Shown piece after piece: positions 44,409-52,611 of a DNA stretch of 64,000 nt (position 1 is its first letter; each line of letters starts with the position of its first letter). Origin of the DNA: Clavibacter nebraskensis NCPPB 2581 (lineage in GTDB: Bacteria; Actinomycetota; Actinomycetes; Actinomycetales; Microbacteriaceae); NCBI RefSeq assembly GCF_000355695.1, contig NC_020891.1, positions 1,984,001 to 2,048,000 of the forward strand, written 5' to 3'. The translations under genes were made by a program, and so were the position numbers. The notes under the pieces were generated by a model. It was not told the origin of the DNA, ran no database searches, and saw only the letters and a list, made by a program, of their open reading frames with translations.

Positions 44409-47400
44409 ATGGACGAACGACGCACGCAGGACCATCAGCTCCGGACCCTGCGCTTCTGGCTGCTCTTGGAACTCCTGAACCCGCAGGCGGTCCCCGCGGT
44501 CACCTCTCGGACCGACCCATCCGAGGCGCGTGTCGCGGCATGGCGTTCCGGTGATCCTCTGCCGTGGGAGGTGATGCCCCCGCCCCGTCCGCGTCACGGC
44601 GCGAAGCGCGTGTGGCGGCACACCGTGTACCTCGGTGCGTATCCCCTCGAGGCGACGTTCGCACGGCTGCACGCCCTGTTCCCCGAGGATCGCGACGCGT
44701 ACCAGGAACGCCCGGGAGGTACTACGGCAGTGGCCGGCCTGCTCGTCGACGACGGCGGGAAGTACGTCCCCGAGTCCGCGATCCTGTCGTCGGCCTCGTG
44801 GGCGGTCGGACACCTCTCGAGGTCGGCGACGACGAGTCGGGAGTGGATCGACGGGTTCGGCAGCGCGGCGGAGGCCTGGGCTGACGCGGTCGACGAGCAC
44901 GAGGGTGTGCGTGCGGACACGGGGGACGAGGGCCTCAAGCCGATCGACGCTGATGCCCTCTCCGGGCTCCTCCGGCTGGCTCACGCCTCGGCAGGACTGG
45001 TCGGCGACACCGACCTCGCGACCGACGCCATCCGCATCCAGAGTGTCCCCGTGTCCATCCGCACCGCCGAAGGCGCCCTCGAGATCGACTTCCTCAACAG
45101 CTTCCACCTCGAGGACCTCACTTCCGTGTCCGAGCAGGTCGCCAGGGGCGACGTGGGAGCCGCCCTGTCGACCTACCTGACCGGAGATGGCGACCTGGCT
45201 CAAGACCGGCGCATCGACGTGGTCGCGGACATCGGCGCCATGGAGTTCGGTGCCGGCATCGAGCGCCTCCCGAAGGGCAGATGGCCCACGAACCCGTCGC
45301 AGCCGCTCGCGACCAGCCAGCAGTTCGCCGTCGACCACGCGCTGCGCGACCTGATGCCGGCAGCGGGTCTCATGGGGGTGAACGGCCCACCCGGGACGGG
45401 TAAGACGACGATGCTGCGCGACATCCTCGCGGGCAACGTCACCGAGCGCGCCCGCCGTCTGTCCGCGCTAGCCAGGCCCGAGGACGCGTTCACCTCCGTC
45501 GTCCACCAGTGGAACGGAGCGCAGGGCCACAGGATGTCCGTGCCGCAGCTCCGACCAGAGCTGACGGGCTTCGAGATGGTCGTCGCCTCGTCCAACAACT
45601 CCGCGGTGGAGAACATCTCCTCGCAGATCCCCGGACGCGATGCGATCGACGAGAGGTGGCGGGGGTCGGCGGACTACTTCGGCGAGCTCGCGTCCCTGGT
45701 CATGAGGAAGAGCGGCACGCGTACGCCATCCTCGGACAGCGACGGCGCGGAGGCGTGGGGCCTCGTCGCGGCGAGGCTCGGGAAGAAGGAGAACCGAGGC
45801 GCCTTCTACTCCTCCTTCTGGTTCGGAGAGCAGAGCGACGAGCTCGCGGCGGATGGCCGTGCGCCCGTACGGGGCATGCAGGAGCTACTCACCCGATGGA
45901 GGGACGGATCCGAGCCGTTCCGCCCATGGGATGACGCTCGTCGTGCGTTCCAGGACGCCGAGCGGAGGGTCGACGAGCAGATCCGCGAACGGAGCGAGGC
46001 GGATGCCAGACGCCGCCTGCTCCCGCACCTGCGGGAGCAGGAACACGAGACCGCGGGCGCGGTGGTGCGCCTGGAGACCTGGGCGGCCCAAGTTGAGACC
46101 GAGTCCGCGGCTCACGCCATCGCCCGAGCGGACGCCGCTGCCGCGCTCGAGCGCGCGGTGGGCAGGATCCAGGACCATGTCCTCGTCAAACCGGGTATCT
46201 GGGAGACGTTGTTCTCCCTCGGCCGCGCGGTCCGCGAGTGGCGTCTGGCGCTTGGGCCGTTGGAGATCGCCCGGGACCAGGCCGCGGCCCGCGACGACGC
46301 GGAGCGACGCCGCTCCGAAGCCGACCGCCTAGCTCAGGCACGTGCCGCGCAGGAGGTGAGCGCCGCCCGCCAGGAGCTCTCCGCGGTCCGCCGTCGTATC
46401 GCGGCCACCGTGAAGGAGTGCGAGCAGGACGACGCCCGCATCGGGGGACCGCGTCCTGGAGCGGGCCGTACGGATCAGGAGAGGGAGATGATCGCACCCT
46501 GGCTCGACGCGACGCTCGACGCGGCGCGGTCCGATCTCTTCCTCGCCGCCCTGGAGCTGCACCGCGACTTCCTCGCCAGCGCGGCGTCGACGATGGTCCG
46601 TGGCCTGCGCGCCGCATGCCAGGTCGTCGCCGGCAGTTCCCCGGCCGACCTCGAGGGCGAGAAGCTGAAGGCGGCGTGGCAGCTCTTCTTCCTCGTGGTC
46701 CCCGCGATCTCCACCACGTTCGCGTCATCAGGCCGCATGTTCGGGTCGCTCGGACGCGAGGCGCTCGGTTGGCTGCTCATCGACGAAGCCGGTCAGGCGG
46801 CACCGCAGCACGCCGCCGCCTCGATCTGGCGGGCCCGACGGGTCGTGGCGGTCGGTGATCCCCTCCAGCTCCCGCCGATCATCTCCGTACCCCAGAAGAC
46901 CGTCGGGGCGCTCGCGCTGGCGCACGAGGTGACTCCCACCTGGATCCCACCGCGCGCGTCGGTGCAGACCCTCGTGGACCGGGTGGCCCGTTTCGGCACA
47001 TCCTTGCCGCAGGGCGACGAGATGATGTGGGTGAGCGCACCGCTGCGCGTCCACCGCAGGTGCGACGACCCGATGTTCACGATCTGCAACCGCATGGCGT
47101 ACGCCGGGCTGATGTTCCACGCGACGGTCCAGGCGGACCGATTCGACGGGCCTGACGGGCCGCGCGTATCCCCCAGCCACTGGGTCGATGAGCCAGCGAC
47201 GACTCCGGGCAGCCATCTCCAACCCGGTCAGCTGGCGCGCACCCGGAACGCCATCGAGTACCTCCTCGGGCTCGGAATCAGTGCCGAGGAGATCATCGCC
47301 ATCTCGCCCTTCCGGTCCGTTGCGGATCGCCTGGACGCTCTCAAGCATGACTACCCGGGGCTGACCGCGGGGACCATCCACACCGCCCAGGGACGCGAGG

Positions 47401-47615
47401 CGGAGGTCGTGCTGCTCGTGCTCGGTGGCGATCCCGACAAGCCCGGCGCACGAGCCTGGGCGGCCGAGAGCGTCAATCTGCTCAACGTCGCGGTGAGCCG
47501 CGCTCGCCGGAGGTTGTATGTGGTCGGCGACCTGGCCGCGTGGCGCCGACACCCCTACTTCAGCCAGGTGGCCGCCGCGCTCCCAGCTCAGCGGCGCGGA
47601 GGCAGCGCCGACTGA
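44409..47615 (+). CDS. SF1 (Upf1/DNA2-like) helicase, possible defence protein
   Basis: The 1068-residue protein has a roughly 300-residue N-terminal region of unknown type, then Walker A GVNGPPGTGKTTML near residue 320. Motif Ia-like ASSNNSAVENI follows, then a long coiled-coil insert (about 500-700) and Walker B LLIDEAGQAAP near 790. VVAVGDPLQLPPI, AQGREAEVVLLVLGG and AVSRARRRLYVVGD complete an SF1 helicase core. The insert and N-terminal domain are not typical of housekeeping helicases. It is a lone gene in an accessory region, and GGATCC is sparser than in native genes. A phage-defence or RNA/DNA processing role is inferred from context only. Confidence 0.8.
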   Translation: MDERRTQDHQLRTLRFWLLLELLNPQAVPAVTSRTDPSEARVAAWRSGDPLPWEVMPPPRPRHGAKRVWRHTVYLGAYPLEATFARLHALFPEDRDAYQERPGGTTAVAGLLVDDGGKYVPESAILSSASWAVGHLSRSATTSREWIDGFGSAAEAWADAVDEHEGVRADTGDEGLKPIDADALSGLLRLAHASAGLVGDTDLATDAIRIQSVPVSIRTAEGALEIDFLNSFHLEDLTSVSEQVARGDVGAALSTYLTGDGDLAQDRRIDVVADIGAMEFGAGIERLPKGRWPTNPSQPLATSQQFAVDHALRDLMPAAGLMGVNGPPGTGKTTMLRDILAGNVTERARRLSALARPEDAFTSVVHQWNGAQGHRMSVPQLRPELTGFEMVVASSNNSAVENISSQIPGRDAIDERWRGSADYFGELASLVMRKSGTRTPSSDSDGAEAWGLVAARLGKKENRGAFYSSFWFGEQSDELAADGRAPVRGMQELLTRWRDGSEPFRPWDDARRAFQDAERRVDEQIRERSEADARRRLLPHLREQEHETAGAVVRLETWAAQVETESAAHAIARADAAAALERAVGRIQDHVLVKPGIWETLFSLGRAVREWRLALGPLEIARDQAAARDDAERRRSEADRLAQARAAQEVSAARQELSAVRRRIAATVKECEQDDARIGGPRPGAGRTDQEREMIAPWLDATLDAARSDLFLAALELHRDFLASAASTMVRGLRAACQVVAGSSPADLEGEKLKAAWQLFFLVVPAISTTFASSGRMFGSLGREALGWLLIDEAGQAAPQHAAASIWRARRVVAVGDPLQLPPIISVPQKTVGALALAHEVTPTWIPPRASVQTLVDRVARFGTSLPQGDEMMWVSAPLRVHRRCDDPMFTICNRMAYAGLMFHATVQADRFDGPDGPRVSPSHWVDEPATTPGSHLQPGQLARTRNAIEYLLGLGISAEEIIAISPFRSVADRLDALKHDYPGLTAGTIHTAQGREAEVVLLVLGGDPDKPGARAWAAESVNLLNVAVSRARRRLYVVGDLAAWRRHPYFSQVAAALPAQRRGGSAD

Positions 47616-48879: not shown

Positions 48880-49295
48880 GGAACTCCTCGGGTGCGTGCC
48901 GCGACGAAGGGGTAGGCGGCAGGTGGTGCCGTCGAATGACGACGCCTGAGGCTATGAGCGCGCTCCCGCGGGCGTAAGCCCTCGTGTGGGGGTGAAAGCG
49001 GGCCAGGCTACTGAGACTGCTCGTCCGAGTAGCGTCCTCGCACGGCACGCAAACGGTAGGCACCGCTTTAGAACACGCCCCTCGACGCACTGGATTTGTG
49101 GTTGGCGAAGCAGCCCACTCAACAGCATCCCCACTACATGCGCATCTCCCTGCGCAGGCAGGGCAGCAGCAGCTCATGCGTCAACGCGACACCCCGCCCG
49201 CCGCGCCGTTTCTGCTGATAAATAGATGCACTATACGGCACCCATTCGTTTTGGCAACTCCCAGTTCGGGGGCCAACATTCGGCGTAGTTCTTTG

Positions 49296-49314
49296 AGGCG
49301 CCTGAACTTAAGTT
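49296..49314. promoter_or_regulatory. two adjacent palindromes upstream of the KptA fusion
   Basis: AGGCGCCT (49296-49303) is followed one base later by AACTTAAGTT (49305-49314), both perfect. They lie 34-53 bases before the candidate -10 and could bind a repressor or activator. Confidence 0.35.
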
Positions 49315-49347
49315 AGACCAGGTGTATTAAGTCCCCGCACTCGTCTG

Positions 49348-49353
49348 TAGGGT
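49348..49353 (+). promoter_or_regulatory. -10 hexamer (TAGGGT) of the KptA-fusion gene
   Basis: TAGGGT is followed by seven bases and then ATG 49361, which suggests a leaderless transcript. No ribosome site lies upstream of the ATG. Confidence 0.45.
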
Positions 49354-49360
49354 CACTCGC

Positions 49361-52300
49361 ATGGCCAGACCCACTCCCACTTCAATCGCCCATTTGTACG
49401 CAAGTAGCACGCAAGACCAATTGCCCGACACGCGCGTCGACACCCTTAGCGAATCTTTTCCATCAATTGTCATCCTCGCAGAGCAGTACGGCATAGACGT
49501 TGCAGATGCCCTCGACCGCTGGGTGTCTACTGTCGGAGCCGCGGGGGTCTCTGCGCTTATAGCGAAAAGCACCTCATCCTTTGAGGTCGCTAGATACATT
49601 AGAGAAGCCGTTTCTCGGGATGGGCAGCCGCTCCCCCTACTCGCGTACTTAATAGCCGAGGAACGTCTTCGGCACGACGCTGCCGGCATTTCGGGCTATC
49701 TAAAGTCCGCTGGCACTTCTATGCCGGACACCTATTTGCAACTGATTGAGCGCCTAGGCGAGTCGTTTCTTAATACGGCATTTGAAGCAACATGGAAGCG
49801 CAGAGCGGTTTTTAGCCGCGCACTGAATGCGTCAAGAGCGTACTTAGGCTACGTCAAGCAAGAGGCTGACCTGAGCAACACGCGATTACGCCGAGGAACC
49901 CTTACCCGCCTAGGCATGTCGACAGTGCTTCTGGCTCGCTTTGGTCCAGTCCAGGAGGAAGCCTTGCGCGAGGCTCGCACAATATTGCTCACCACTCATG
50001 AACAGGGATCTGAACAGGCCCTTACGTACTTCATTGAAGCCTCTACCTGGCTTTACGACCTTTTCGGAGACAAAGAAGCGGTGCGTGAGGCGGCGCGTCT
50101 ATTCTTGAGCGACCCAAGACGCGATGGAGCGCGTTGTATCGCAGGAGCGCATACCTGGCTTAGGTTGGCGGGAAACGCAACGTCATCGGAGGGCCGAGCC
50201 GGTTTCATCCACCGAGGGCGTGAAAGTCTCCAAGCTTCATCGCTTGAGGACAACTTCAGCCGCAAGGAAGAAATTGCGGCCAGAACGCTCTTATTAGCCA
50301 TGTTTGATGCCCTCGAAACTCAGGCGGCACAGGGATACTCAGATCTTGACACTAGATGCGTTCTTTTTCCCTTCGGCCTCCGGCGCCCCGACACCACAAT
50401 GCCTAAAAGCTATTACAGAGCTCTCCCCGAACTCATTGATTCTCTTCGGAACTCCGAGCACTACGGCGACTACCTGTTCCGTGACTTGCGAGCGGACTTG
50501 CATTCGTTTTTCGCTCGGGCACCTGAAACCACATCTTCAGATGCAGAAGCGTCATTACGCACTGCTATCGAGCTACGCCTCGGACGCAGCCACAGGGAAC
50601 GCCCTTTAGGCCGCGCAGGCGTCGAAGCGAGTATTGCAGAGGATTACTTTCTTCTGGCCACCATGAACCGAAGTACAGAAGATCGTCGCGCGGGATTTCG
50701 GTCACTCTTACGTGCACCGGGCAGCGCCTCCTCTAGTCCACGTCACTTGACCTTGATGGCTAAGGAACTGGATGCACACGGGCCTCTCCGAGGATTTGCC
50801 CTCGAAGGTCCAGACGAGTACACCTTTGCCATTCAGTCCGGGGACACCAACGCGATGTTTTCCGCGGCAGCTCGCGTAGCTTATCAAAGTGCAGACTTAG
50901 CTCACGTTCAATTGGGCGGCCGAAGCGGCGTTGTCAGCCTCCGCGACGTCGATGGCAGTACAGGGCAGACGTTTGTCTTCAAGACCATGTCTAGGGAGGG
51001 GCGGGATCGCGACGCTGCGTTCACTTCTCGGGTAATGGATAGCCTGAATCAGTACGGCTTTTCGAGCCGTTTCGGAATAATAGAACATCTCACTGAAATC
51101 AAACCTTTAACGCAATCCACGCCGGGAGTCTCGGAAATTATATCGGTTAGGCGGTACTCAAATGGCTTTATACTGGGCCAACATCTACCCTTACAGTCGG
51201 ACACGTTGCGATTGGCTACACTGAGTAGCACAGCCGAATATCTAGCATTGATTCATCACTCAGGAGTTGATGGACGAGTAATGACGGGTGCCCGGCGAGA
51301 ACTGCGAAGCAAGGAACTGGGACGATGGCTTAGAGCCCTCACGGGGGACGACGTTTTGCGCGACAGATTATTTAACAGATGGTGGGACGAGATTGCCAAT
51401 GCACCGCTGCTGCCTCGGCGAGACGCACATCCCATGAATTGGTTAGTCGATGCGGACAACCGCATTCTCGCCGTCGATCTTGAATCAACAGGCGTCCGCC
51501 CTTACGGCTACGAAATTGCACAATTACTAGAAGACGGGCAGCTTCTTGATCCCGATGATTGGGAGAGCCGTCGAGCAGTCGTGAAGGCCTACACAGATTC
51601 TTGGCAATTCGTCTCCGGTCAAGTGCTTACTGAAGCGGAAGCCTTTCATCTTTACCAATTAGGCGCTATCGCTCGAGCAGTGCGTGCCATTAGCCTCCCA
51701 TCAGCCTCCTCGCAGACTCGAGCTTTCGGCGGCAAAATACTTGAAGTACTGAGCTCCAAGGGTGAGCAGGATGCAGTTCGCTCTCTCGCATTAGACCTTA
51801 GCCAACTTTGGGCCAGGCAAACAGGGCGCGTCGGGGACGACGAGTATCAGATTCTTTCTAATGCGGATAGACGGCGGATCAGCCGCGCTATGGCCTATCG
51901 CCTACGACACGATCCTTCAACTCCTGCCACAAAGGATGGTTGGGTGCACGTGGACGAGTTGACAGACCTTCTACGTTCTTCCGGGCATAAAGTTACCAGC
52001 GCTCAGCTAATTCTTATTGCCGGAGCTTTGGGTGAGCAGCGATTCGAACTGGAGGGGTATGACATCAGAGCAGTTTATGGCCATTCGACTCGAACCAGTA
52101 TCGCCTATTCATCAAAGAATCCACCCCGTGTTTTGTATCATGCAACGCCGCTAAGAAACCTGAAGTCCATACTTGAGGCCAGAGCCGGGTTAGTACCCGG
52201 ACGGCGGAATTGGGTCCATTTAACTGACTCTTGCTCCGTCGCCCTTAACGCCGCGAGGAGACAGCAGGCATCGGTTGCAGTACTGGAAATAGACGCCGCG

Positions 52301-52438
52301 TCGCTCGACGGTCTTGTATACGCGACGGGTTCGACATGGTTGGCTAAAGAGGTGCCCGCTAGCCAATTAAGGCTACTTCCTCTTCGTGAAATGCACGAGC
52401 TTGTGGACGCTGACACTTCGGTTCAGGACGAGTACTAG
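49361..52438 (+). CDS. helical-repeat / APH-like kinase / KptA (Tpt1) RNA 2'-phosphotransferase fusion
   Basis: The 1025-residue protein reads in three parts. Residues 1-515 are alpha-helical, repeat-like and unassigned. Residues 515-730 look like an aminoglycoside phosphotransferase-type kinase: FVFKT with lysine 541, then RRDAHPMNWL (D688, N693) and AVDLE (D706). Residues 835-1000 match KptA/Tpt1: YRLRHDP (R849, H850), IRAVYGHST (R903, H908), LYHAT (H927), WVHLT (H953) and AARRQQ. Tpt1 removes 2'-phosphates from RNA with NAD+. Composition near 50% G+C and lack of GGATCC mark it as foreign. It ends about 100 bases from tRNA-Pro. The kinase assignment is by motif order only and is less sure than KptA. 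Confidence 0.75.
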   Translation: MARPTPTSIAHLYASSTQDQLPDTRVDTLSESFPSIVILAEQYGIDVADALDRWVSTVGAAGVSALIAKSTSSFEVARYIREAVSRDGQPLPLLAYLIAEERLRHDAAGISGYLKSAGTSMPDTYLQLIERLGESFLNTAFEATWKRRAVFSRALNASRAYLGYVKQEADLSNTRLRRGTLTRLGMSTVLLARFGPVQEEALREARTILLTTHEQGSEQALTYFIEASTWLYDLFGDKEAVREAARLFLSDPRRDGARCIAGAHTWLRLAGNATSSEGRAGFIHRGRESLQASSLEDNFSRKEEIAARTLLLAMFDALETQAAQGYSDLDTRCVLFPFGLRRPDTTMPKSYYRALPELIDSLRNSEHYGDYLFRDLRADLHSFFARAPETTSSDAEASLRTAIELRLGRSHRERPLGRAGVEASIAEDYFLLATMNRSTEDRRAGFRSLLRAPGSASSSPRHLTLMAKELDAHGPLRGFALEGPDEYTFAIQSGDTNAMFSAAARVAYQSADLAHVQLGGRSGVVSLRDVDGSTGQTFVFKTMSREGRDRDAAFTSRVMDSLNQYGFSSRFGIIEHLTEIKPLTQSTPGVSEIISVRRYSNGFILGQHLPLQSDTLRLATLSSTAEYLALIHHSGVDGRVMTGARRELRSKELGRWLRALTGDDVLRDRLFNRWWDEIANAPLLPRRDAHPMNWLVDADNRILAVDLESTGVRPYGYEIAQLLEDGQLLDPDDWESRRAVVKAYTDSWQFVSGQVLTEAEAFHLYQLGAIARAVRAISLPSASSQTRAFGGKILEVLSSKGEQDAVRSLALDLSQLWARQTGRVGDDEYQILSNADRRRISRAMAYRLRHDPSTPATKDGWVHVDELTDLLRSSGHKVTSAQLILIAGALGEQRFELEGYDIRAVYGHSTRTSIAYSSKNPPRVLYHATPLRNLKSILEARAGLVPGRRNWVHLTDSCSVALNAARRQQASVAVLEIDAASLDGLVYATGSTWLAKEVPASQLRLLPLREMHELVDADTSVQDEY

Positions 52439-52496
52439 CAAGGAAGCTTTCTCGCGGGCCGGCCATATTGAATATATTTCGACGCGAAATTGACGA

Positions 52497-52532
52497 ATGC
52501 CTCGGAAGGACCAGTAGATCCTTCCGAGGCAT
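52497..52532. terminator. hairpin terminator of the tRNA gene and the KptA fusion
   Basis: Fourteen perfectly paired bases (ATGCCTCGGAAGGA) close an eight-base loop, immediately 3' of the minus-strand tRNA and 58 bases after the plus-strand stop. It probably serves both. Confidence 0.8.
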
Positions 52533-52537
52533 GTCCG

Positions 52538-52611
<74 letters not shown>

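Follow-up and report, generated by a model that had tools for sequence, protein, structure and literature searches.

The reason why bacteria carry Tpt1/KptA RNA 2'-phosphotransferases is a long-standing puzzle. To our knowledge, the yeast-type ligase that would produce the substrate of these enzymes is generally missing in bacteria, and among natural sources of an RNA 2'-phosphate the archaeal kinase ArkI is the best known. What, then, might be the role of a KptA domain that shares its chain with a kinase, as encoded in the 64,000-nucleotide stretch of Clavibacter nebraskensis NCPPB 2581 DNA analysed here (the window)? We confirm that the open reading frame at 49361-52438 of the plus strand, with an ATG start and a TAG stop, encodes a three-part protein of 1025 aa with two enzyme folds, consisting of a helical N-terminus, an APH-like kinase and a KptA/Tpt1 domain. 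This layout, proposed in a first-pass annotation of the DNA, is borne out by domain profiles, by the AlphaFold2 model of the full-length protein (mean pLDDT 84.9, pTM 0.78) and by 19 intact homologues, which together with the protein of the window make up our alignment of 20 intact members. The family apparently represents a conserved and undescribed combination of known enzyme folds; no description of the three-part architecture was found in the open literature searched, and an earlier mention in a 2016 RNA-repair survey is possible. With KptA and a kinase in one family, the puzzle becomes testable in one protein.

The C-terminal part (residues 834-1005; 51860-52375, plus strand) is matched by the Pfam model PF01885 over residues 837-980 (70.3 bits; cut-off, 26), and all 20 members match this model at E<=0.01. 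A search of PDB sequences relates this part to solved Tpt1/KptA structures at E 6e-20, and the NCBIfam RNA 2'-phosphotransferase model matches it at E 1e-33, though below the whole-protein cut-off of that model. The structure prediction found the expected Tpt1 fold at the C-terminus, with TM-scores of up to 0.87 (E 1e-8), the highest being that to the TkoKptA-DNA-NAD complex. A complete set of Tpt1-like motifs had been read here in order, and it is present and invariant in 20/20 members: LRH (R849, H850), IRAVYGHS (R903, H908), LYHAT (H927) and R949 followed by VHLT (H953); R967 is likewise invariant across the 20 aligned intact members. R849-H850 (51905-51910), R903 (52067-52069) and R949 (52205-52207), all on the plus strand, align with the essential tetrad Arg18-His19, Arg68 and Arg121 of CthTpt1 (numbering of PMC6333775), and the Arg-His-Arg-Arg tetrad is, as judged from this alignment, intact. 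The Lys66 position of known Tpt1 is not kept in the family; this lysine is nonessential in the known enzymes (PMC6333775). The fold, the tetrad and the LYH and VHL motifs are common to the three-part protein and the Tpt1/KptA family (PF01885; CthTpt1, TkoKptA, SCO3953), whose enzymes remove internal 2'-phosphates (PMC6333775) and ADP-ribosylate 5'-phosphorylated RNA or DNA ends, Streptomyces SCO3953 included (PMC6582358). Unlike the known enzymes, the KptA domain described here follows a helical solenoid and a kinase on the same chain. KptA is known to be fused to a Nudix enzyme in one virus and to be embedded within viral polyproteins (PMC9503650). The Nudix-KptA fusion of Bodo saltans virus, which is the top viral fold match, likewise joins KptA to another nucleotide enzyme (PMC9503650), but its partner is a Nudix domain and it has neither kinase nor solenoid. 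In its own genome (one contig, 3,063,596 bases), the gene of the window is the sole KptA; RtcB was also looked for in this genome and was not found.

The kinase in the middle of the chain had been the weakest step of the first-pass annotation. The APH model PF01636 scores 20.1 bits on the whole protein, below its cut-off of 23.2, and 24.2 bits on the excised region; it is matched by 4/20 members at E<=0.01, and a profile of the kinase found no match among PDB sequences at E<=1. The kinase-only AlphaFold2 model (pLDDT 90) contains a bilobal APH-like fold in the region of residues 515-730, where a kinase fold had been expected, and yields 524 fold matches in the PDB at E<=0.001. The 50 matches listed consist entirely of kinases and complexes containing them; choline/ethanolamine kinase, APH(2''), the amicoumacin kinase AmiN and LicA come first, 5-methylthioribose kinase is also listed, and the top ones (choline kinases and APHs) have E of about 1e-7 and TM-scores of 0.5-0.57. 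On this model, the middle part (residues 514-823; 50900-51829, plus strand) is a kinase that adopts the APH/choline-kinase fold. The kinase lysine K541 (50981-50983), the residues D688, H690 and N693 of the catalytic loop D688-A-H690-P-M-N693 (51422-51439) and the metal-binding D706 (51476-51478), all on the plus strand, are invariant in 20/20 members; a degenerate kinase was rejected on this ground, and the domain is active-looking, its catalytic residues being intact in the alignment. It has in common with the APH/choline-kinase superfamily (AmiN, APH(2''), LicA, 5-methylthioribose kinase) the fold and the K, DxHxxN and D catalytic set, and differs from it in an RRDAHxxNW loop, in an invariant GGR strand-loop and in its position inside a 1000-residue protein with KptA. 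Kinases of the APH fold phosphorylate sugar hydroxyls, and APH-fold protein kinases exist. To name RNA as the substrate of this kinase would be an assumption, and one that we do not make because, of the three parts, KptA alone is basic and the other two are acidic overall.

The N-terminal part (residues 1-510; 49361-50890, plus strand) is predicted to form an all-helical, TPR/HEAT-like solenoid, with AlphaFold2 helices throughout residues 6-509, mostly at pLDDT 75-95. It has no match in Pfam; the only matches are weak ones to designed helical repeats, and by fold it weakly resembles Sel1/TPR or HEAT proteins. The long helical-repeat region claimed for the N-terminus is accordingly seen in a confident model, with a weak resemblance to repeat proteins. 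This is the fastest-evolving part of the protein, with a mean identity of 0.29 vs 0.37 and 0.41 for the other two parts.

A scan of contigs with the single sequence found no relative, whereas an alignment-based scan of GTDB contigs gave 21 loci, in 20 of which the N-terminus, the kinase and KptA follow in that order. The 19 intact homologues (25-39% identity, same order) belong to many actinobacterial families and to one non-actinobacterial MAG contig, their hosts including Cryobacterium, Rathayibacter, Leifsonia, Curtobacterium, Microbacterium, Streptomyces, Actinoplanes, Micromonospora, Nocardiopsis, Nocardioides, Promicromonospora, Haloactinopolyspora, Demequina, an Acidimicrobiaceae MAG and a Thermobaculum MAG contig, which is short and may be a contamination. 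In the host family, the layout is carried by 4/400 genomes. A distant member in another actinobacterial genome (L067) is matched by both the kinase and the KptA profile, downstream of an N-terminal stretch that shows little similarity; frame-broken copies occur in Demequina (L036) and in G241 (L004), with intact copies in other species. Homologues consistently lacking one part were not seen, all 19 aligned intact homologues keeping the three. Since these homologues keep the order of the parts, and since both catalytic sets are invariant in 20/20, it can be surmised that both activities have been kept together. The pairwise identities of the three parts correlate (Mantel r 0.966, 0.909 and 0.903; 0/2000 shuffles). 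The four closest pairs, with dN/dS of 0.11-0.33, point to purifying selection in every part; two more distant pairs gave lower dN/dS, but with saturated dS. On these sequence comparisons, the three parts share one history, and a chance or assembly fusion is rejected by the 19 intact homologues of the same order and by this co-inheritance. A tree separates the fused KptA domains as a single group from the 23 stand-alone actinobacterial KptAs sampled, with moderate support (68% of bootstrap trees); without the long-branched L067 (21 fused domains), the same grouping has support of 89/85. This is consistent with one old fusion origin of the family. A phage or plasmid origin of the fusion was considered and rejected: phage and plasmid records match the KptA part only, over <=20% of the query among the matches listed, and two scans of viral contigs found no relative of the three-part protein. 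A further candidate (G1036/L056) was set aside as an ordinary short APH. Elsewhere, L037:8930-10960 encodes a relative of the kinase (about residues 359-634) with no detectable KptA or N-terminal part, possibly a truncated copy near an insertion sequence.

Over the 3.5 kb that hold the three-part gene, G+C falls to 0.53-0.61 from 0.69-0.76 in the surroundings; in 20/21 loci, the flanks are richer in G+C than the gene. Comparison within the genus delimits a variable island at 49017-52491, which here holds the three-part gene only and elsewhere other cargo. The gene is absent from the same-genus genomes checked, 9 of which were searched with the protein, and the right flank is present in 17/17 same-genus genomes. 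In ten sister regions, 0.9-9.7 kb of other DNA separates a left flank that ends, in all but L059, at about 48,996-49,040 from a right flank that starts at about 52,490-52,540. The view that the gene is foreign by composition and island-borne thus holds, as does its reported proximity to tRNA-Pro: tRNA-Pro(GGG) occupies 52537-52611 of the minus strand, its 3' end towards the island, and beside it, at the right island edge and within the conserved flank, stands a strong hairpin, GCCTCGGAAGGA/TCCTTCCGAGGC (52497-52533), placed by sequence, fold and boundary. The claim of an own promoter was not sustained, as a scan gave one sigma-70-like site, on the wrong strand, with 1.4 expected by chance. No direct repeat of at least 16 bases, indicative of an attachment-site duplication, was found at the left edge, and none of the genes within 10 kb of the family members is conserved. 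The three-part gene is a singleton, and a mobile one.

Inspection of the neighbours of homologues with the same layout, which had been suggested as a check, gives a context that leans towards conflict or defence but is mixed. Genes for AbiU and a HerA-type (HerA/mad8-like) ATPase lie just upstream of the three-part gene and in the same direction at L025, as do mad7-like (551 aa) and mad8-like (1814 aa) genes at L029 (L029:1305-12658), and a type IIG restriction enzyme adjoins it at L030; at L017, L018 and L020, it is found among housekeeping genes. The flanks of 15 fused loci contain type IIG and type II restriction enzymes and AbiU at E<=1e-25, whereas 15 random control regions gave housekeeping-like PADLOC matches only (GlgB, kinase models). 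The flank enrichment in defence genes (3 clear strong ones among 117 flank proteins vs housekeeping-like matches only among 144 control proteins) is suggestive and rests on very few genes. The three-part protein itself matches 0 PADLOC families at E<=1.

A role in RNA repair or in anti-phage RNA damage, as advanced in the first-pass annotation, can be hypothesised, and the three-part protein probably serves in stress or phage defence, as an enzyme of a kind undescribed in the literature searched. We tentatively propose, with somewhat less than even confidence, that this single mobile gene encodes a conflict or stress enzyme whose kinase and KptA domains act in sequence, so that a target is inactivated or capped. 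Two intact enzymes long kept on one chain, without partner genes, suggest a self-contained reaction. Moreover, Tpt1 acts on nucleic-acid phosphates (PMC6333775, PMC6582358), which makes a phosphate-adding partner chemically sensible, and a kinase on the same chain would be its simplest source. The TPR-like N-terminus would most likely sense a trigger or hold the target, and the APH-type kinase would phosphorylate a hydroxyl on it, most plausibly on the sugar of a nucleic acid end, on a nucleotide or on another small molecule. The KptA domain would then use NAD+ on the new phosphate and add ADP-ribose, as Tpt1 does on 5'-phosphates, or alternatively remove the phosphate as ADP-ribose cyclic phosphate. 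We infer the reaction order, the substrate, the N-terminal sensing and the anti-phage outcome: the order favoured is kinase before KptA, with the trigger received through the solenoid, and the target would be inactivated or capped during phage attack or toxin stress.

Other arrangements of the same parts must be weighed against this sequence. KptA could be the sole effector and the kinase only its regulator, acting through phosphorylation of a partner or of the N-terminal region, as in Pgl/BREX-type systems. The kinase, however, has the fold of small-molecule kinases rather than of protein kinases, although APH-fold protein kinases exist, and no phosphosite was identified; this unlikely arrangement draws on the N-terminus being the fastest-evolving part, as expected for a sensor under conflict, and on the protein kinase included in the Pgl phage-defence system of Streptomyces (PMC4365076). 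The two enzymes could also be the writer and the eraser of a reversible RNA mark, the kinase adding a 2'-phosphate to tRNA, as ArkI does at U47, and KptA removing it. Both active sites are intact in the three-part protein, which would suit such a cycle, and APH-fold kinases act on sugar hydroxyls, 5-methylthioribose kinase being among the fold matches listed; ArkI and KptA form such a pair in archaea, likewise acting on one phosphate, and bacterial ArkI homologues are active (PMC9095486). Nevertheless, two such activities on one chain would cancel without tight control, and ArkI and KptA are encoded by separate genes in thermophilic archaea (PMC9095486), whereas the present family is patchy, mobile and mostly found in non-thermophilic actinobacteria. 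ArkI belongs to the COG2112/AQ578 family and not to the APH fold, and it carries a positive tRNA-binding patch (PMC9095486), in contrast to the net acidic kinase and N-terminus described here. It is absent among the 50 fold matches listed, from a PDB set that may lack it, and the kinase profile found no PDB sequence match at E<=1. We consider a writer-eraser cycle distinctly unlikely.

RNA healing would have the kinase phosphorylate the 5'-OH ends left by tRNA-cutting toxins and KptA clear the junction 2'-phosphate after ligation, thereby protecting the cell. A 5'-kinase and Tpt1 do serve one route in fungal and plant splicing, but the RNA 5'-kinases known to us are P-loop enzymes and not of the APH fold. 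RNA repair genes are often found in phage and island contexts (PMC9503650); the lack of a fused ligase, of a conserved neighbour and of RtcB in the own genome nonetheless renders such a pathway improbable. Lastly, the kinase could phosphorylate an antibiotic or a nucleoside-like compound, with KptA ADP-ribosylating or processing the phosphate. The presence of the family in Streptomyces and its relatives would agree with small-molecule detoxification, as would the amicoumacin kinase and APH(2'') resistance enzymes among the closest folds listed, but resistance kinases do not usually carry a large helical N-terminus, and the tetrad that reads RNA 3'- and 2'-phosphates is fully kept, indicating a nucleic-acid-like substrate; we consider this reading very improbable. 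The favoured reading, in which kinase and KptA act in sequence in a conflict enzyme, has its own difficulties, namely the several relatives among housekeeping genes, the few genes behind the flank enrichment, the lack of a PADLOC model for the protein and the kinase without detectable KptA at L037. Its boldest form, in which one polypeptide phosphorylates a target, then ADP-ribosylates the new phosphate and, as an immune effector, thereby marks RNA, DNA ends or a nucleotide with phospho-ADP-ribose, seems to us rather doubtful. If this form is true, the protein would be the first Tpt1 from bacteria to have its substrate made by its own chain and would represent a new class of NAD-dependent phage defence; should the protein block phage, phosphorylate-then-ADP-ribosylate chemistry would be added to bacterial immunity.

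The tRNA-Pro site itself houses diverse genes in sister species, whose cargo includes NACHT (L060), Vsr (L061), RmrA (L062) and RES-domain (L064) proteins and a CARF6 set (L063). Given such cargo (L057-L066), the site is a genus-wide hotspot for conflict-type genes. The NACHT-domain protein (982 aa, L060:4775-7720, G+C 0.51), which has no PADLOC match, is a candidate for bacterial NLR-like defence. A low-G+C cassette at L063:3794-7842, encoding a calcineurin-like phosphoesterase, an ORC/CDC6-like ATPase (PF24389, 322 bits) and a CARF6-type protein, is possibly a three-gene defence system. In the window, a 1068-aa AAA/UvrD-like helicase ORF at 44409-47615 adjoins the island and may be a second variable gene; several same-genus genomes have no alignment there. 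At L065, a 90-base copy of the tRNA end region encloses an insert of 8.8 kb.
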